This document shows, piece after piece, positions 57,124-64,000 of a stretch of 64,000 nucleotides of DNA; position 1 is the stretch's first letter; the number at the start of each line of letters is the position of its first letter. Below the pieces are notes generated by a model. The model was given only the letters and a program-made list of their open reading frames with translations, was not told the origin of the DNA and made no database searches. A program made the position numbers and the translations under genes. Source of the stretch: Paraglaciecola sp. MB-3u-78 (GTDB lineage Bacteria > Pseudomonadota > Gammaproteobacteria > Enterobacterales > Alteromonadaceae); the NCBI RefSeq assembly GCF_002835935.1, contig NZ_PJCF01000086.1:186001-250000 (forward strand), given 5' to 3'.

Positions 57124-58103
57124 GTAACAAAATTGTAGTTGCTATTTGTCCTGGAAACTTTGTAACTGGTGGTCCAGAGGTATTACATCAATTTGTTCAT
57201 TGTATTAACGAAAATGGTGGGGATGCCAAAATTTTATACTATCCATTCAGTAGTGTTTTTCAGGTACCTAAAGCTTATTTAAAATATAATGTGAATATAT
57301 GCAGTATAGACGACGTAAAAAATAAAAGTGTTGAATTTGTTATACCTGAAATTTTCACTGCTTGTATTAAAGAGCTACCTGGTAATAATTTCAACATCTG
57401 GTGGCTATCTGTAGATAATTATTTTGAGTATAAAAATGGAAGTTTTCTTTCAAAAATTAAATTGTCTATTAAAAAACTAATTAAATTCCGAACATCACCA
57501 TTGACTATTAATCAGTTAAAGAAATATAAGCAGTGGGTGCAGAGTTATTATGCTCAAGAGTTTTTAGGTACATATGGTATTGAGTCAAGTTTACTTTCTG
57601 ACTTTTTGAATAATGAACATTTAAACCAAGATGTTGATATGTTTAAGAAAGAAAATATTATCTGTTTTAATCCTAAAAAAGGAATTAGTGTTACTAACCA
57701 GCTTACTAATGCTTATCCTAATTATAAGTTTGTGCCGATTCAAAATATGACGGCAAAAGAAGTATCTGAGTTGCTTCAATCTTCAAAGATTTATATGGAT
57801 TTCGGTAATCATCCTGGTAAGGACAGAATTCCTAGGGAAGCGGCGATGGCAAAATGTGTTGTCATTACAGGTACAAAAGGTAGCGCGAAAAATGAATATG
57901 ATATAGCTGTTGATTCAAAATATAAAATTGATGAGGAAGGTGATCAATTTTGTGCTGCAGTAGGCGAATTATTTCAAGATGTGTTTGATAGGTTTGATCA
58001 TCATATTGAACGTTTTGAACCTTATCGTACGAAAATTGCTTCTGAAGAAGCTGCTTTTAATCAACAAGTTTTAGATTTCATGAGATATACCAGGGTTAAA
58101 TAA
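57120..58103 (+). CDS. Glycosyltransferase-like protein of a polysaccharide cluster
   Basis: A 327-residue protein, AT-rich in codon use. The N-terminus (VVAICPGNFVTGGPEVLHQFVH) and the C-terminal part (ICFNPKKGISVTNQL, MDFGNHPGKDRIPREAAMAKCVVITG) fit a GT-B glycosyltransferase-like fold; the G-x-D-R-x-P-x-E-A segment resembles the nucleotide-sugar site with its acidic residue. It overlaps glf by 4 nt, so a galactofuranose-related transfer is a reasonable guess. No more genes of the cluster follow; an IS1595 element lies next. Confidence 0.75.
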   Translation: MSNKIVVAICPGNFVTGGPEVLHQFVHCINENGGDAKILYYPFSSVFQVPKAYLKYNVNICSIDDVKNKSVEFVIPEIFTACIKELPGNNFNIWWLSVDNYFEYKNGSFLSKIKLSIKKLIKFRTSPLTINQLKKYKQWVQSYYAQEFLGTYGIESSLLSDFLNNEHLNQDVDMFKKENIICFNPKKGISVTNQLTNAYPNYKFVPIQNMTAKEVSELLQSSKIYMDFGNHPGKDRIPREAAMAKCVVITGTKGSAKNEYDIAVDSKYKIDEEGDQFCAAVGELFQDVFDRFDHHIERFEPYRTKIASEEAAFNQQVLDFMRYTRVK

Positions 58104-58148
58104 GTAAACTTGTTTTCAGATGTAAATTGCATTTTAAAATTAGAATTT

Positions 58149-59122
58149 CATGCTTCTCCACTTTGCTCAGGCATGAACTAAACTGTATATGAAAATAAAC
58201 AGTTTAAGGGAGTTCGAACATGAACACGCCAGAAGCCAGTTTTTTAACGTGGCAACAGCAATTCAGAACGAATAAAGATTGTCTCCAGTATCTGAAGGAA
58301 ATGAAGTGGCCTAATGGGTTTATGTGTCCTCAATGTGGTCACGACAATGGGATTGACCTTCACTGCCGAGAATTAACCGAATGCAGCCATTGTCATAAGC
58401 AAACATCGGTGATGTCAGGTACTTTATTTCATGGTAGTCATCTACCGTTACTCAAATGGTTTTGGGCACTGTATTTTATAGGCTCAGACAAAGGCAGTAT
58501 TTCAGCGTTAAGGCTAAGCAAGCTTATTGAAGTGAATTGGAAGACTGCTCGGCTTATGTTAACGAAAGTGAGAGCGGCTATGGGACACAGGGATAGCCTC
58601 TACCGATTGTCGGGCACAATAGAGTTAGATGATGCCTTTGTTGGCGGTAAGCACAAAGGCAAGCGTGGTCGTGGAGCAGAAGGGAAAACCCCCATTATCA
58701 TAGCATGTGAAAACAAGCATAAAAAGGCAGGGTTTATCGCAATGAAAGCGGTTAAAAATGTGAATTTTAAAACAGTAAAAGAATTTGTATCACATCACCT
58801 TTTAGCTAATCAGCATGTCAGAACGGATGCTTATCCTGCGTTAAATATTATAGATAAAACACAGCAACATGAGCCAAGAGTCACGCCAAGTGAAAAGGTA
58901 GACGAATGGTTGCCTTGGGTTCATATCGCGATAGGTAATTTGAAAACGTTTTTGTTGGGCACGTTTCATGGCGTTACGGGTAATTACTTACAAGAATACT
59001 TGAATGAGTTTTGTTATCGGTATAATCGCCGTTTTGTGGAAAAACAAATACCTAATCGATTGTTAAACTTGGCAATTATTCATACTCCTTTAAAATCAAC
59101 CTGAGTTAAATGGAGAAGCATG
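58149..59122 (+). mobile_element. IS1595-family element, 974 bp, with 8-bp target duplication
   Basis: Terminal inverted repeats CATGCTTCTCCA (58149-58160) and TGGAGAAGCATG (59111-59122) are perfect and extend with three mismatches to CTCAGG, about 23 bp. The flanks TAGAATTT (58141-58148 and 59123-59130) are identical. The element holds one intact transposase gene and looks complete. Confidence 0.93.
58220..59104 (+). CDS. IS1595-family transposase
   Basis: A 294-residue transposase. It has a zinc ribbon CPQCGHDNG with CSHCHKQTSV (residues ~36-62) and then an ISXO2-like DDE/N domain: ELDDAFVGGKHKGKRGRG, VRTDAYPAL and HVAIGNLK-type VHIAIGNLKTFLLGTFHG, ending EFCYRYNRRF. The gene fills its element, between complete terminal repeats. 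The frame is intact. Confidence 0.95.
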   Translation: MNTPEASFLTWQQQFRTNKDCLQYLKEMKWPNGFMCPQCGHDNGIDLHCRELTECSHCHKQTSVMSGTLFHGSHLPLLKWFWALYFIGSDKGSISALRLSKLIEVNWKTARLMLTKVRAAMGHRDSLYRLSGTIELDDAFVGGKHKGKRGRGAEGKTPIIIACENKHKKAGFIAMKAVKNVNFKTVKEFVSHHLLANQHVRTDAYPALNIIDKTQQHEPRVTPSEKVDEWLPWVHIAIGNLKTFLLGTFHGVTGNYLQEYLNEFCYRYNRRFVEKQIPNRLLNLAIIHTPLKST

Positions 59123-59147
59123 TAGAATTTTATTATGTCTTAACTAG

Positions 59148-59215
59148 ACATATATGGACGCTCCCCCGAAGTCAAAGCATAACTAATCTTTCCGTGCTGT
59201 TTACAGCACTTGCTC
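59148..59215 (-). mobile_element. Stray right end of the IS1111-type element, inverted
   Basis: Read on the minus strand it gives the hairpin GTGCTG...CAGCAC (59194-59209), then TTGACTTC and GGGAGCGTCCAT (59154-59165) with ATATATGT, the same order as at 63452-63512. About 25 of the last 27 bases match copy 2. No transposase accompanies it. Confidence 0.8.
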
Positions 59216-59235
59216 TACCCTCGACTCAAGGCTCG

Positions 59236-59355
59236 CCAACTATTTATCCCATTTTGTGGGTCAATCGCCATGCGGACGCCGCGCGGGACAGGCGATTGAG
59301 CGGTGCGCCGTCGGGAACGGCTCAGCACGACCTACGAAATGGGATAAATAGTTGG
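59236..59355. repeat. Branched inverted repeat (three-way-junction-like)
   Basis: CCAACTATTTATCCCATTT (59236-59254) is perfectly complementary to 59337-59355. Inside lie two further hairpins: CAATCGCC (59262-59269) with GGCGATTG (59291-59298), and GCCGT-cggga-ACGGC (59307-59321). The first inner loop carries the 17-nt GC-rich core seen elsewhere in this region. The whole could fold as a cruciform or RNA with three stems. Confidence 0.85.
59272..59288 (+). repeat. GC-rich loop core, site A
   Basis: The 17-mer GCGGACGCCGCGCGGGA in the loop of an 8-bp hairpin, CAATCGCC/GGCGATTG. It is one of five exact occurrences within 2.6 kb. Confidence 0.9.
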
Positions 59356-59389
59356 ATGAAGAGCATTGCCCTCGAGCGGCACTTTTTAT

Positions 59390-59457
59390 GAAATACGTCC
59401 TGTATTTCACCCTTCGGGCCATCTTATTGATGTTCAAATTTTTTCCAGAAAAATTTG
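59390..59457 (+). repeat. Two hairpins with TCC loops
   Basis: GAAATAC-gtcct-GTATTTC (59390-59408) and the 9-bp stem CAAATTTTT with AAAAATTTG around TCCAG (59435-59457). Stems are perfect and unrelated to each other; both loops contain TCC. Confidence 0.8.
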
Positions 59458-59525
59458 TGCTTACTTTATGCTGCTGTAGGCAAAAAGTAAGTCGCAGCGA
59501 AGGGATTTGGTGTGAAAACTGCCAT

Positions 59526-59542
59526 GCGGACGCCGCGCGGGA
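59526..59542 (+). repeat. GC-rich loop core, site B
   Basis: The same 17-mer, flanked by ACTGCC (59518-59523) and GGCAGT (59544-59549), which pair. The matching block R2 has the core too (61344-61360). Confidence 0.9.
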
Positions 59543-59608
59543 GGGCAGTAAGCGTTAGCGCATGCTCTAACTCTTTGTAAAATATTAAAAGCACGCTTCG
59601 CGCCATCT

Positions 59609-59625
59609 TCCCGCGCGGCGTCCGC
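59609..59625 (-). repeat. GC-rich loop core, site C (occupied)
   Basis: The 17-mer in reverse orientation between CCATC (59603-59607) and GATGG (59628-59632). In R2 the same place reads CCATCA-tccc-TGATGG (61421-61436), 14 nt shorter. Confidence 0.9.
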
Positions 59626-59672
59626 CTGATGGTTTTTGACTAGAATCCTTTCTAGCCAGTGACTCTTTTTAT

Positions 59673-59706
59673 AAAGTGCATCCAGCGCGGCTGCGGCTTG
59701 CACTTT
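59673..59706 (-). repeat. Variant GC-rich loop module
   Basis: AAAGTGCA and TGCACTTT pair around TCC, a 14-nt insert AGCGCGGCTGCGGC (59684-59697) and T. In R2 the hairpin is AAAGTAC-gtcct-GTACTTT (61476-61494). The insert agrees with the common 14-mer CGCGCGGCGTCCGC at 10 of 14 positions. Confidence 0.8.
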
Positions 59707-59924
59707 ACCTTTCAGGCCAGCTAAAGCTGTTCCATATTTATCCCGTAAATATGGTCAACAGCAAAAAAGAGTCACCAGACACAATGGTCGGGAACCATTT
59801 TGAACATCTGCAAGGTGGCCCGAAGGGCAAAGTATAAGGATGTACTTTGTAAAATGCCGCTCGCTAAAAAAGTTCTTAACCGCAAAAAATGACTTATTTT
59901 CAAACCGCTACAAACACTTCAAAT

Positions 59925-60418
59925 TAGTCAATCACACTTCCATGATGATCGGCACCCAATCTCGACGTCCGTGTCGAGCTGTTCAACTGGGCGAAGCTGT
60001 GCTTTTGGGTTTATGCCCTAACGGGCTATTACCCTAGCCCACCCGATGTAACCACTTTAACTTAGTCAATCACACATCCATGATGATCGGCACCCAAACC
60101 TGACGTCCTTGTCAGGTTGTTCAACTGGGCGAAGCTGTGCTTTTGGGTTTATGCCCTAACGGGCTATTACCCTAGCCCACCCGATGTAACCACTTTAACT
60201 TAGTCAATCACACATCCATGATGATCGGCACCCAAACCTGACGTCCTTGTCAGGTTGTTCAACTGGGCGAAGCCGTGCTTTTGGGTTTATGCCCTAACGG
60301 GCTATTACCCTAGCCCACCCGATGTAACCACTTTAACTTAGTCAATCACACATCCATGACGATCGGCACCCAAACCTGACGTCCTTGTCAGGTTGTTCAA
60401 CTGGGCGAAGCCGTGCTT
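59925..60418 (+). repeat. 138-bp tandem repeat, 3.6 copies
   Basis: Units start at 59925, 60063, 60201 and 60339, exactly 138 nt apart; the last stops after 80 nt. Each unit begins TAGTCAATCACAC and holds a hairpin with a GTCC loop and a second one, GCCC-taac-GGGC. In unit 1 the first hairpin is CTCGAC/GTCGAG, in units 2-4 CCTGAC/GTCAGG, so both arms changed together. A single related unit follows R2 at 61736. Confidence 0.92.
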
Positions 60419-60443
60419 CTAAAGAATCCAGTTTCACCCCTAA

Positions 60444-60546
60444 AATAAGCCTTTTTGTGCTGAAACTTTAAATGCGGAAAAGCAGTGGTGTTGCCACCAA
60501 AGCGGGTATCGGCAATGCCGATTATTTTTGTTCACTTACGGTGGAT
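60444..60546. repeat. Twin-hairpin repeat, copy 3 (no transposase beside it)
   Basis: Same order as copy 1: AATAAGC, TGAAACTTTAAA, GCGGAAAAGCA, hairpin GTGGT-gtt-GCCAC, hairpin ATCGGC-aat-GCCGAT and TTACGGTGG. It closes the R1 block and is followed by the toxin-antitoxin genes rather than an insertion sequence. Confidence 0.85.
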
Positions 60547-60604
60547 GACCAAGTAATTTTCCATGTGATTTGTCCAGGTGTCCATGTAATTTGAAAATTA
60601 GCAG

Positions 60605-60904
60605 TTATTTTAAGTGTTTTTGTGGGAGCTGTGATTGCCCTAAGACTGCAACAACTAGGATGAAGCCATTTTCTTTGGTGAAATAAGCCGTATGTTTACC
60701 TACTGGGAAATAGAATCCGTGGGGGTATATTCCATTGCAACTTCTCCCCACCCCTGGATTATCAGCTAGCATCTGGAATCCAGTTAAGAGCGTTTCTTTA
60801 TAATTTCGCCATTGTAATTCGGAAAAGTTTTCAATCGTGTAACTTTTTACTTTACGTAAATGCTCCTGAGCTAAATTGCTCAGTTTGTATTGTTTCTTAT
60901 GCAT
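60605..60904 (-). CDS. ParE/RelE-superfamily toxin
   Basis: A 99-residue toxin with the ParE pattern: LSNLAQEHLRKVKSYTIENF, WRNYKETLLTGFQMLADNPG, and the C-terminal strand YFPVGKHTAYFTKENGFILVVAVL. ParE toxins poison gyrase; RelE relatives cut mRNA, and the ParE-like N-terminal hairpin favours the former. It follows its antitoxin gene by 8 nt. The pair lies between two copies of a duplicated repeat block. Confidence 0.88.
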   Translation of the reverse strand: MHKKQYKLSNLAQEHLRKVKSYTIENFSELQWRNYKETLLTGFQMLADNPGVGRSCNGIYPHGFYFPVGKHTAYFTKENGFILVVAVLGQSQLPQKHLK

Positions 60905-60912
60905 ACCGATCG

Positions 60913-61155
60913 TTATAGCGCATTTAAAAAGCTTTGACCGTCAAGAACATTTCCTTTAGCTAAGTCTTGCTTAGCAGATTCGAAGCAGTGTTTAAGGTAT
61001 TCAGCCTTCATAGCTTCAATCTCTTCATAATCTCTAATCGACATTACGACCACGGTATCTTTGCTGTTTTTGCTGATTTTAACTGGTTCGCGTTGAGCAT
61101 TTAGAAGTAACTCACCAAAATTTCGTTTAGCATCATTTGCTGTTAGTGTGAACAT
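60913..61155 (-). CDS. Phd/YefM-family antitoxin
   Basis: An 80-residue antitoxin. The N-terminal Phd fold reads LTANDAKRNFGELLLNAQREPVKISKNSK and VVVMSIRDYEEIEAM; the C-terminal helix (YLKHCFESAKQDLAKGN) is the expected toxin-binding part. It is the first gene of the pair and probably represses the promoter in front of it, near 61160-61200, together with the toxin. Confidence 0.9.
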   Translation of the reverse strand: MFTLTANDAKRNFGELLLNAQREPVKISKNSKDTVVVMSIRDYEEIEAMKAEYLKHCFESAKQDLAKGNVLDGQSFLNAL

Positions 61156-61318
61156 GTTTGAGTTCCATAATTGAACGTATAGTAAGATTATAGTTTTTCG
61201 TGTGAAATAATCAATTTAATTAAATCGTGCGATATAGGTTTATTCTTTAAAACCACAGGTTTACAGCAATAAAAGCATGCGCTAATGCTTACTGCCTTCT
61301 ATTACAGGACGCACAGAA

Positions 61319-61766
61319 AGGGATTTCGTGTCAAAAAAGCCATGCGGACGCCGCGCGGGAGGGCAGTAAGCGCCAGCGCATACTTTAACTCTTTGTAAAA
61401 AATCAAAAGCACGCTTCGCGCCATCATCCCTGATGGTTTTGACTAGATTCCCTTCTAGCCAGTGACTCTTTTTATAAAGTACGTCCTGTACTTTACCTTT
61501 CAGGCCAGCTAAAGCTGTTCCATATTTATCCCGTAAATATGGTCAACAGCGAAAAAGAGTAACCAGACAAAATGCTCGGGAACCATTTTGAACATCTGCA
61601 AGATGGCCCGAAGGGCAAAGTATAGGGATGTACTTTGTAAAATGCCGCTCGCTACAAAAGTTCTTAACCGCAAAAAATGGCTTATTTTTGGTTCGTTACG
61701 AATGTTCTTTTCCTGCCCGATGCAAACACTTCAGCTTAGTCAATTACACATCCATGATGAACGGCA
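61319..61766 (+). repeat. Duplicated block, copy R2
   Basis: Direct copy of R1 (59501-59953). Hairpins with TCC loops include CTAGA-ttccct-TCTAG (61443-61458), AAAGTAC-gtcct-GTACTTT (61476-61494) and CCATATTTA-tcccg-TAAATATGG (61520-61542). A single 138-bp-type unit and twin-hairpin copy 2 follow it, as the array and copy 3 follow R1. Confidence 0.85.
61344..61360 (+). repeat. GC-rich loop core, site E
   Basis: The 17-mer GCGGACGCCGCGCGGGA at the place in R2 that corresponds to site B in R1; it is flanked by GCC and GGGC. Confidence 0.9.
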
Positions 61767-61793
61767 CTCGGTTACCGCGTAACAATCTCGACG

Positions 61794-61810
61794 TCCCGCG
61801 CGGCGTCCGC
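61794..61810 (-). repeat. GC-rich loop core, site D (occupied)
   Basis: The 17-mer in reverse orientation inside CTCGAC...GTCGAG. The first unit of the tandem array has the same hairpin without it: CTCGAC-gtccgt-GTCGAG (59961-59978). The difference is exactly 14 nt. Confidence 0.92.
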
Positions 61811-61882
61811 GTGTCGAGCTGTTCAACAGGGCGAAGCGGTGCTTCTAAAAAAACCAGTTTTACCCATGCCATTTGCCCCAAG

Positions 61883-61985
61883 AATAAGCCATTTTTAGCT
61901 GAAACTTTAAATGCGGAAAAGCAGTGGCGGAGCCACTAAAGTGGATATCGGCAATGCCGATTTCTCTTGTCTTCTTAAGATGGAT
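61883..61985. repeat. Twin-hairpin repeat, copy 2
   Basis: AATAAGC, TGAAACTTTAAA, GCGGAAAAGCA, GTGGC-gga-GCCAC, ATCGGC-aat-GCCGAT and TTAAGATGG. The left inverted repeat of the intact IS1111-type element starts 7 nt after it. Confidence 0.85.
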
Positions 61986-62068
61986 GATGAGATGGACGCT
62001 CCCTAATACGGCGTCAATGCGCCAGAATAGTATTTTTGACCAGACTATTTACATAAGGAGCGTCCAAA

Positions 62069-63100
62069 ATGAAGCTTAGAACAATTGGTATCGATTTAGC
62101 AAAGAATGTATTTCAGGTTTGTGGAGTGAATGAGCATATGAAGTCGCAGTTTAATAAGCGGTTAAAGCGACATCAACTGCTCGACTTTATGCGTCAGCAG
62201 GCGCCTACGATGGTGGTGATGGAGGCCTGTTATTCATCCCATTACTGGGGGCGCGAACTGACTAAGTTAGGCCATGATGTAAAGCTTATCCCAGCTCAAC
62301 ACGTCACGCCTTTTGTGCGAGGCAACAAGAATGACCACAACGATGCCTTTGCGATTACAGAGGCCAGTCAGCGTCCGTATATTCGCTTTGTACCGATTAA
62401 AACCGAGCACCAACAGGAAATATCCTGCTTACATCGTATCCGTGAGCGACTTATCAAAAACAAAACTGCGATGAGTAACCAAGCCAGAGGGTTATTGAGT
62501 GAGTTTGGCGTGGTGTTTCCTTGTGGTCACAAAGCGCTGTTAAATGGGTTGGACAGCGTCACAGATAACGCTCAATATAGTCAGCGATTGCAAGACATGG
62601 TGAAGGAGATGTTGAGTGAATATAACACCACCATAGAGCGCCTTAAAAGCATCAAAAAACAGTTAGATGAATTTGTTGATGACAGTGAGAGCGGTAAGAT
62701 ATTACTCAGCATTCCCGGTATCGGTGTGATTAATGCCTCTGCATTGTTAGCGGCCATCGATAAAGGCCAAGCGTTTAACAATCCGAAAGAGTTTGCAGTG
62801 TGGTTAGGACTGACACCCAAACAACATGCATCGGGTAACATCAGTAAAATGGGCGGTATTACCAAACGCGGTGACCGGTATTTGCGTAAACAACTGGTAC
62901 ACGGCGCCAGAGCCCTGGTCAGTCGTGCAGCAAAAAGTACCGACCCTCTATCTCTATGGGCTACCAAGCTTCGCGTCTCCAAACCGTTTAATAAAGTGGC
63001 AGTCGCCGTCGCACATCGCTTAGCACGTTTAATCTGGATATTGCTCACGCGTCAGGAGCGTTATCGCGCTATGCCAGCTTCTTTAGAGGTCAGTGCTTAA
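62069..63100 (+). CDS. IS110-family (IS1111 group) transposase
   Basis: A 343-residue DEDD recombinase. The N-terminal RuvC-like domain has Asp in IGIDLAKNVFQ, Glu in VVMEACYSSHYWGREL and the Asp pair in GNKNDHNDAFAITEAS. The C-terminal domain has LLSIPGIGVINASALLAAI and LGLTPKQHASGNISKMGGITKRG with the conserved serine. Spacing and sequence are of the IS1111 group (compare IS4321/IS5075). AAGGAG lies 10 nt before the ATG. All catalytic residues are present, so it may be active, unlike copy 1. Confidence 0.95.
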   Translation: MKLRTIGIDLAKNVFQVCGVNEHMKSQFNKRLKRHQLLDFMRQQAPTMVVMEACYSSHYWGRELTKLGHDVKLIPAQHVTPFVRGNKNDHNDAFAITEASQRPYIRFVPIKTEHQQEISCLHRIRERLIKNKTAMSNQARGLLSEFGVVFPCGHKALLNGLDSVTDNAQYSQRLQDMVKEMLSEYNTTIERLKSIKKQLDEFVDDSESGKILLSIPGIGVINASALLAAIDKGQAFNNPKEFAVWLGLTPKQHASGNISKMGGITKRGDRYLRKQLVHGARALVSRAAKSTDPLSLWATKLRVSKPFNKVAVAVAHRLARLIWILLTRQERYRAMPASLEVSA

Positions 63101-63496
63101 TATGAATCAGTTTACGTTATCCCGGTTTTGCTCAATTCCGTCCGAGACAAAGGCACAAAGCCTGTGTGGGTGTTGTGGAAGGCAAGACTCGGGATAACAC
63201 TTTTTTACCCACCCCCGCTTAGTCACAAAATGATGAAGAAAACGGTCTACCCTACCTCATCAAAGCCAGACTTAGACAAGGATAATAATCCGTGTGGGTG
63301 TTTTAAAGGCGATGTGGTTCGGAGTTCATCAGAGGCCTGAAATGATAAAACCATTTCAATAAAGAGCCTGAATATATGTCAGAACTAAGCCATTTTTAAG
63401 ACTGCCTTCAACACAACAGACTAGCGGTAAGAGAATATTACAACGATATTTGTGCTGAAAATCAGCACGAAGGGGCAAGTATTGCGTTGACTTCAC
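63101..63496 (+). ncRNA. Conserved non-coding right part of the IS1111 element, candidate guide-RNA region
   Basis: About 400 nt downstream of the transposase match the same region of copy 1 (53767-54182) although the coding part of copy 1 has decayed. They include GGCACAAAGCCTGTGTGGG, TCTACCCTACCTCATCAAAG and a terminal hairpin GTGCTG...CAGCAC (63452-63468). IS110-family elements are known to make a bridge/seek RNA from a non-coding end, which in the IS1111 group is the right one. That this stretch encodes it is inference. Confidence 0.5.
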
Positions 63497-63519
63497 GGGA
63501 GCGTCCATATATGTTTTCT

Positions 63520-63684
63520 TTATTTTTCTTTATTTTTTCGATTACGCCTTATCTCTCGACTAATAGTGGCATGTGAACGATTAAGTAATCGATCCACCTC
63601 GCGTATCGATTTTTTCTGATAGTGATACCACTCAAATAGACGACAACGTTCAAAATTAGATAGATGAGAATAATGAATACCCAT
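63520..63684 (-). pseudogene. IS30-family transposase, N-terminal fragment
   Basis: ATG at 63684 follows GGAGG. The 54 residues read YSHLSNFERCRLFEWYH, REVDRLLNRSHATISREIRRN, the IS30 helix-turn-helix start. The frame then runs into a stop at 63520-63522, next to the IS1111 right end at 63508, so the rest of the gene is missing. It was probably cut by that element or by recombination with it. Confidence 0.85.
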
Positions 63685-63744
63685 GGTGCACCTCCGTAAC
63701 TAATTAGGTTAGCAAAGGTGGTGCACTTCTACCTTGAAGCTGGG

Positions 63745-63772
63745 GCCGATTTTTCTTTTCTTCTTACGATGG
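63745..63772. repeat. Twin-hairpin repeat, 3' fragment (copy 4)
   Basis: Only the last part, GCCGATTTTTCTT...TTACGATGG, is present, next to the IS30 fragment; GTGTCCTGTTAATT follows. Confidence 0.65.
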
Positions 63773-63871
63773 GTGTCCTGTTAATTAGTTAATTATTGAA
63801 TTTCAGTATCGAACCTTAACAGAACGACCGGTCAAGATGGTTGCCGCTAGCTGGTCAAGTTAATTGTCGCT

Positions 63872-63952
63872 TAATAAAAGGCGGAAAAGCAGTGGCGTTG
63901 CCACCAAAGCGGGTATCGGCAAAGCCGAATTTCCTTACTATATTACGATGGC
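63872..63952. repeat. Twin-hairpin repeat, copy 5
   Basis: GCGGAAAAGCA, then GTGGC-gtt-GCCAC and ATCGGC-aaa-GCCGA, ending ATTACGATGG. The end TACTATATTACGATGG is duplicated once directly after it (to 63969), followed by TGTCCTGTTAATT as behind copy 4. No transposase is beside it within the window. Confidence 0.85.
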
Positions 63953-64000
63953 TACTATATTACGATGGCTGTCCTGTTAATTTCCATGGCTGCTGTCCTG

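Follow-up and report, generated by a model that had tools for sequence, protein, structure and literature searches.

Background

Among bacteria, the nearest described case to the element reported here is that of the repetitive extragenic palindrome (REP) families in which different loop types coexist (PMC3733652). The element is a GC-rich block of 14 nt, hereafter the module, which is present or absent in the tips of hairpins within a 64,000-nt stretch of DNA (the window) from Paraglaciecola sp. MB-3u-78 (contig NZ_PJCF01000086.1, here C67:186001-250000; genome of 6.48 Mb in 87 contigs). As described for REPs and bacterial interspersed mosaic elements (BIMEs), the GTAG-3 and GTAG-14 families have alternative loops and, like the repeats that host the module, are dispersed mosaic palindromes with short and longer GC-rich loops in one family, some of them ending in GCGG/CCGC (PMC3733652). 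Unlike in those families, one identical 14-nt block recurs here in many unrelated arms with exact length steps, the REP foot tag is mostly absent, and linkage to a transposase was not found among the places compared.

Cyanobacterial small dispersed repeats (SDRs) are 21-27 nt long. One of them, SDR5, is described as a very small repeat inserted precisely inside the palindromic site HIP1, which resembles the situation of the module (PMC4390886). The module differs from SDR5 in phylum, in target and in its shorter unit, its target being hairpin apices whose arms are of many different sequences. By analogy, the elements that work most alike are the GC clusters of yeast mitochondria such as GC42, small GC-rich hairpins for which fast turnover, merging, shuffling and recombination hot spots are described (PMC4478555). 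In that account GC42 is a mitochondrial unit that measures 42 nt, has AG or ACT as putative target duplications and lacks the fixed apex place of the module (PMC4478555), and the hairpin-forming elements described from sponge mitochondria are similar (PMC2800124). A single-stranded DNA substrate and hairpin recognition are described for the HUH/Y1 transposases of IS200/IS605 and for TnpA_REP (PMC6006769, PMC3116915), and IS200/IS605 elements are reported to require end hairpins of ~20-25 nt with guide tetranucleotides (PMC6006769).

A literature search among open-licence papers yielded no report of this 14-nt unit. The module seems to come and go exactly, yet it is far too short for a normal mobile element. 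With its exact length, many filled and empty sites and a relative assembled as one contig, it provides a clean natural system for studying how units can spread that are too short to contain transposon ends. It also bears on how palindromic repeats come by their alternative loops, which is unsettled in REPs, cyanobacterial SDRs and mitochondrial GC clusters alike, and on the way in which a tiny common block would reshape repeats via deletions between its copies.

Results

At the level of sequence, comparison among repeat copies shows the presence or absence of the module to be exact, its strand fixed and its target unduplicated, with many unrelated hairpins as hosts and an abundance biased by lineage. 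Eight hairpin types were set by the sequence outside the tip, and the intervening length was measured (one Q tip was counted under Qc too). In every one of the eight, filled tips exceed empty ones by 14 nt, although the arms of the types are unrelated: empty tips of 12-14 nt and filled tips of 27-28 nt in type C, 11-12 and 25-26 nt in T, 8-10 and 24 nt in G, 12 and 26 nt in Q, 11-12 and 25-26 nt in Qc, 7-9 and 23 nt in U, 13 and 27 nt in N, and 20 and 34 nt in D, where a second added 14-nt block brings the length to 48 nt. Degenerate modules, for example AGTGCAACTGATGC, CGAAAGGCGTCCGC and CGCGCGGCACCAGC, are still 14 nt long.

Several tips depart from these lengths. One T tip of 13 nt reads GTCCGC, as would remain if a filled tip suffered a deletion between its two GTCC, and a GTCCGC tip is present at two loci. 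Type C has one tip of 15 nt (degenerate) and one of 17 nt (CAT duplication), type G one of 12 nt, and type D one of 12 nt and one of 34 nt that holds the second 14-nt block, the module being absent. Eight N rows measure 0, 1, 12, 16, 16, 29, 29 and 45 nt; the last is a chimera of types S and N (S-N'), and the other seven look like unrelated matches to the anchor.

The 17-mer GCGGACGCCGCGCGGGA occurs exactly five times in the window (59272, 59526, 59609, 61344 and 61794), and an exact search bore out the coordinates and strands given in an earlier note on this DNA. No further window match was found at up to 3 mismatches, where 0.02 would be expected by chance. Perfect stems of 9 bp (59272), 6 bp (59526), 5 bp (59609), 3 bp (61344) and 6 bp (61794) flank the copies; arms of 5-8 bp had been claimed for four of the sites, which holds save at 59272, with its stem of 9 bp. 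The usual module consists of CGC and a possible mini-hairpin, GCGG-CGT-CCGC.

On the minus strand, an N-type hairpin holds the module at 59272-59285 (arms 59261-59269 and 59291-59299), with an empty partner in the own genome that is 95.9% identical over 123 columns, and Q-type hairpins hold it at 59526-59539 (arms 59518-59523 and 59544-59549) and at 61344-61357 (arms of just 3 bp). Three plus-strand hairpins have empty plus-strand twins within the window. The C-type module at 59612-59625 (arms 59603-59607 and 59628-59632) is paired with CCATCA-TCCC-TGATGG at 61421-61436, and the D-type module at 61797-61810 (arms 61787-61792 and 61813-61818) with CTCGAC-GTCCGT-GTCGAG at 59961-59978, the three units of the tandem array that follow having empty D tips as well. 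A variant module, AGCGCGGCTGCGGC, occupies a T-type hairpin at 59684-59697 (arms 59673-59680 and 59699-59706), the empty twin of which is AAAGTAC-GTCCT-GTACTTT at 61476-61494; G012 and G019 hold variants related to it. All three pairs had been proposed beforehand, and sequence comparison confirmed them together with their 14-nt step. The D block was also seen in three tandem copies spaced 138 bp apart (window 59905-60418), each with an empty TCC hairpin.

The block had been placed directly after TCC. It does sit directly 3' of NTCC in most tips, without duplicated target bases in filled against empty tips of the eight types, but apices of CCC and GGC are exceptions; filled non-TCC apices include CCC-TTCGGG (G015), CTCGAATCC-CTTC and CATCGGC-..GCCGA. 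A module in reverse orientation after TCC was not found in the own-genome stretches.

Empty counterparts were sought with flanks joined around TCC and queried against own and genus loci. An ungapped counterpart was found for 24 of the 34 own sites (up to 2 mismatches); ten sites lack one, namely C78:32571, C56:137440 and eight chimeras. When the flanks were widened to 250 nt, an empty match of at least 40 nt on both sides was found for 34 of 76 own and relative sites, one of the 34 (L381) being doubtful. The best filled/empty pairs across genomes span 392 columns at 88.8% (G012/G002) and 378 columns at 86% (own C34:231950/G002). The earlier note's proposal of a fixed 14-nt block that is present or absent in the hairpin loops of a repeat family is thus supported by eight hairpin types and by further pairs in own and relative genomes. 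Far from lying mostly outside loops, the own sites, as we read their flanks, fall between flanks of one hairpin type in 26 cases and in chimeric hairpins in the remaining 8.

These chimeric joins are C-G' (four), C-T' (one), S-N' (one) and C-like to U' (two, with near-identical surroundings). Left arms of type C are chimeric in 5/12 filled and 0/7 empty tips, a small sample. Both parents occur in direct order in C3, with S and N modules 181 bp apart, and in C5, with C and G modules 183 bp apart, and deletion between the modules of such layouts would give the S-N' and C-G' joins. We read the chimeras as probable deletions between short direct repeats. Joins are also seen at tips that lack the module, where the left arm of a D or Q hairpin runs into another block at the apex.

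A chance origin was rejected: besides the 0.02 window copies expected, a reversed control pattern of the 17-mer had zero copies genome-wide, and stems exceed those of permuted controls. The mean stem at the 29 own sites with up to 1 mismatch is 5.45 bp, against 2.84 bp with right flanks permuted (maximum over 200 permutations, 3.79 bp) and 2.18 bp at random places; a perfect stem of at least 5 bp is found at 19 of these 29 sites. Misassembly is unlikely, since equal tips occur in G012, a relative assembled as one 5.41-Mb contig that carries the same modules.

The own genome holds 25 exact 17-mers and 45 at up to 3 mismatches. Across the genus, exact copies occur in 5/22 genomes and copies at up to 2 mismatches in 13/22, among which some 2-mismatch hits (G006, G008, G009 and G011) are unlike repeat hairpins and may be due to chance; G012 has 20 copies at up to 2 mismatches. 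In a family sample of 147 genomes (6 from the own genus, 141 from elsewhere in the family), a match at up to 1 mismatch was found in just two genomes, both of the own genus, and in 0/141 genomes of other genera. Scans of general and viral contigs (42 viral stretches) with the 17-mer gave, among the matches listed, many records, often titled as GC-rich organisms; nothing is drawn from them.

Over all types, about three in ten tips are filled in the own genome, G000 (27/92, or 26/91 without the double count), compared with 1/37 in G002, 15/36 in G012, 7/17 in G019, 2/24 in G018 and 1/11 in seven further genomes; the rates of G000, G012, G018, G019 and G017 are biased upward because their loci were partly or wholly picked for carrying the module, whereas the G002 loci were picked mainly by repeat similarity. 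G000 and G002 differ with Fisher P = 0.0006 (tips non-independent), and type C alone gives 6/15 against 0/10 filled tips (P = 0.05). The fewest occupancy changes on trees of the flanks were 14 in type C (shuffled mean 12.5), 11 in G (12.1), 5 in T (5.7) and 4 in D (3.9; an earlier D tree with one extra row had 3 changes). Occupancy in these four types is as scattered as shuffled labels, with no sign of inheritance, a result that is suggestive only because the flanks are short and mosaic.

An unguided scan collected indels of at least 6 nt between aligned repeat copies, merged per place (n = 243, non-independent events). The modal length was 14 nt, with 64 of the 243 indels having exactly this length, followed by 8 nt (34), 7 nt (26) and 13 nt (26); the main module accounts for most of the 14-nt indels, and some of 13 and 15 nt are alignment slop. 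Among 114 inserts of 12-16 nt, 50 contain a 4-bp stem with a 3-nt loop, compared with 6.9 in shuffles, and 34 of these 50 are the main module or its variants; the other 64 of the 114 lack such a perfect stem-loop, some being degenerate modules and some plain block differences.

Two further hairpin inserts, unrelated in sequence to the main module, were each found at one repeat position. The first, TTACCGCGTAA (core TTAC-CGC-GTAA), is 14 nt long and occurs at 7 places, in one of which it was aligned as 13 nt: window ~61769-61783, own C78 (two) and C23, and copies in G012 and G019. Within the D block it is flanked by GGCAC(T) and CAATCTCGAC, and the tandem array of the window has insert-free twins. 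The second, CAACCGCGTTG with its variants (core CAAC-CGC-GTTG), was aligned as 14 or 15 nt at 8 places. It lies before TCGCTAC in the G block, with copies in own C78 (three), in own C34 near 231894 and in G012.

Discussion

We tentatively favor the reading that hairpin apices acquire and shed the module as an exact 14-nt micro-insert, strand-specific transfer to the single-stranded apex being the likeliest route; the idea of a very small inserted sequence, raised beforehand, would fit the exact gain and loss suggested by the sequences. The unit would spread in single-stranded form into exposed apices, for example on the lagging-strand template, the strand transfer being carried out in trans by an activity that may be of the HUH/Y1 type. 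What suggests that type is the exactness of both ends together with the fixed strand and the lack of duplication, all of which fit HUH/Y1 chemistry; in its favor, too, the own genome has 11 Y1_Tnp matches. Two modules in direct orientation within one repeat could then recombine or slip over 17 identical bases, deleting the intervening DNA and leaving chimeric hairpins.

Elements of the IS200/IS605 group insert exactly beside a short target without duplicating it. The module likewise lies 3' of a short target on a fixed strand and without duplication, the CCC and GGC apices excepted, but it lacks two subterminal hairpins with guide tetranucleotides, its unit being 14 nt. Target-site duplications, a mark of classical transposons and miniature inverted-repeat transposable elements (MITEs), were absent from all eight hairpin types, and in having many sites at which one short unit is precisely present or absent, the module resembles very small mobile repeats.

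Several observations weigh against such a transfer. Two IS200/IS605 ends cannot fit into the 14 nt of the module, which holds a single 4-bp mini-hairpin at most, and some filled apices lack TCC. Of the 11 Y1_Tnp matches in the own genome, 8 were compared in their places, the flanks of L393-L395 closely, and no Y1 gene linked to module-bearing repeats was established. The surroundings of L393, L394 and L395, three longer genes of 234-334 aa, consist of GGGGTCA-type repeats of another kind in direct and inverted orientation, and L391 and L392 have some matches to the stretches compared. The flank trees rest on short, mosaic flanks, and type Q occupancy does track its tree (2 changes against 4.5 when shuffled, with 1/200 shuffles as low). 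The inner stem GCGG/CCGC keeps a standard pair (G-T included) in 144/172 cells over 43 distinct 14-mers, a list in which 15 were added by hand from observed tips where missing and which holds some chance-like hits; no clear case of compensation was found among these 14-mers, and substitutions are no scarcer in the stem than elsewhere. Finally, when window tips were folded as single-stranded DNA, two of the four filled ones, C (z 0.0) and Q (z -0.3), folded no better than shuffles; the filled D (z -2.0) and T (z -3.6) tips formed extended hairpins, and three empty tips folded better than shuffles (z -2.5 to -6.7).

As an observation apart, the GGGGTCA repeats of L393-L395 resemble the flanking repeats described for TnpA_REP subclass 2.1 (PMC6006769).

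A close rival, itself possible though somewhat doubtful, is copying from apex to apex by template switching or very short gene conversion, in which the strand end of a stalled or tip-cut hairpin would switch to another apex, copy the module and return, with no dedicated enzyme. In its favor, the repeats are evident mosaics joined at tips even where the module is lacking, TCC offers a common microhomology on the entry side, and chimeric filled tips make up 8/34 own sites. The exit side, however, has no microhomology, and a return at the second GTCC would drop the final GC, which nevertheless belongs to the usual module; nor would tracts of varying length be expected to give exactly 14 nt in eight types without arm bases.

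It is improbable that the module instead serves a functional RNA or DNA element as a structural helix, a mini-hairpin kept or lost by selection, with alleles inherited or shuffled by ordinary recombination. That tracts fold as nested hairpins, that two other small hairpin inserts (14 nt; 14-15 nt) each keep to one repeat position, and that type Q occupancy is inherited with its flanks would all agree with this explanation. Yet no Rfam match was found (window 58000-64000), hairpin directions are mixed within one tract, and selection on a helix would not be expected to place an identical sequence in unrelated arms. The mixed folding results and the want of clear compensatory change in the inner stem lend a structural role of the module itself no clear support.

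Least probable is an ancestral filled tip from which the 14 nt were lost repeatedly: full-length degenerate modules in several genomes and the two GTCCGC loci, which resemble deletion between both GTCC of a filled tip, speak for it, but exact loss has no known route because no direct repeat frames all 14 nt, the 43 sites that share an identical 14-mer despite differing arms point to recent spread, and G002 has the repeats with 1/37 tips filled.

Should transfer into apices be correct, the module could be a micro-element of hairpin tips, 14 nt long and moved single-stranded into other apices, which would make it the smallest DNA unit so far with precise mobility, and possibly one of several such inserts; we regard this wider claim as speculative. 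The candidate build of inserts in this repeat family is possibly 3 nt, a 4-bp stem and a triloop.

Host repeats and genomic surroundings

The host of the module is a mosaic, nested-palindrome repeat family found genus-wide, with hairpins that favor a TCC apex. In the window it forms two tracts with approximate limits and no strand assigned, at 59230-60548 and 61274-61987, and one tract from C67 folds into nested hairpins. One block query found the family in 21/22 genomes of the genus, own included. Four block queries gave at least 55, 43, 54 and 59 own-genome matches, the best 40 of 54-82 first-look candidates having been scored in each. In 49 stretches (215 kb), the loop contains TCC or GGA in 84 of the 226 hairpins with arms of at least 7 bp, compared with a median of 19.5 over the 32 loop trinucleotide classes and with 50 for the runner-up, AGG/CCT, which overlaps TCC.

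Membership of the REP families was rejected. Within 8 nt of a foot of 66 TCC-apex hairpins (arms of at least 7 bp), the foot tags GTAG, CGTC and GGAG occur 10, 1 and 0 times, compared with 3 for GTAG and 2 for CGTC in a control 60 nt upstream; GTAG is thus somewhat above control but in a minority, and no transposase was linked among the 8/11 Y1_Tnp places compared. CsrA-type NGGA loops, the complement of TCC, were set aside because hairpins face both directions inside a single tract. Covariance models of Rfam 15 gave no match in window 58000-64000 at E up to 1, a phage sequence search gave no matches, and no open reading frame of at least 150 aa lies between 59105 and 62068.

Transposase genes of IS1595 type (58220-59104) and IS110 type (62069-63100) bracket the repeat region. 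A toxin-antitoxin pair lies between the two tracts, at 60604-61233, and for this reason an integron cassette array was considered; it was rejected, with no attC-like core found by eye. The pair matches Vibrio plasmids at ~77% DNA identity, where the genes are annotated as a RelE/ParE toxin and a Phd/YefM antitoxin, and beyond these genes the only plasmid match is to a 50-bp stretch on the border of the IS110 element.

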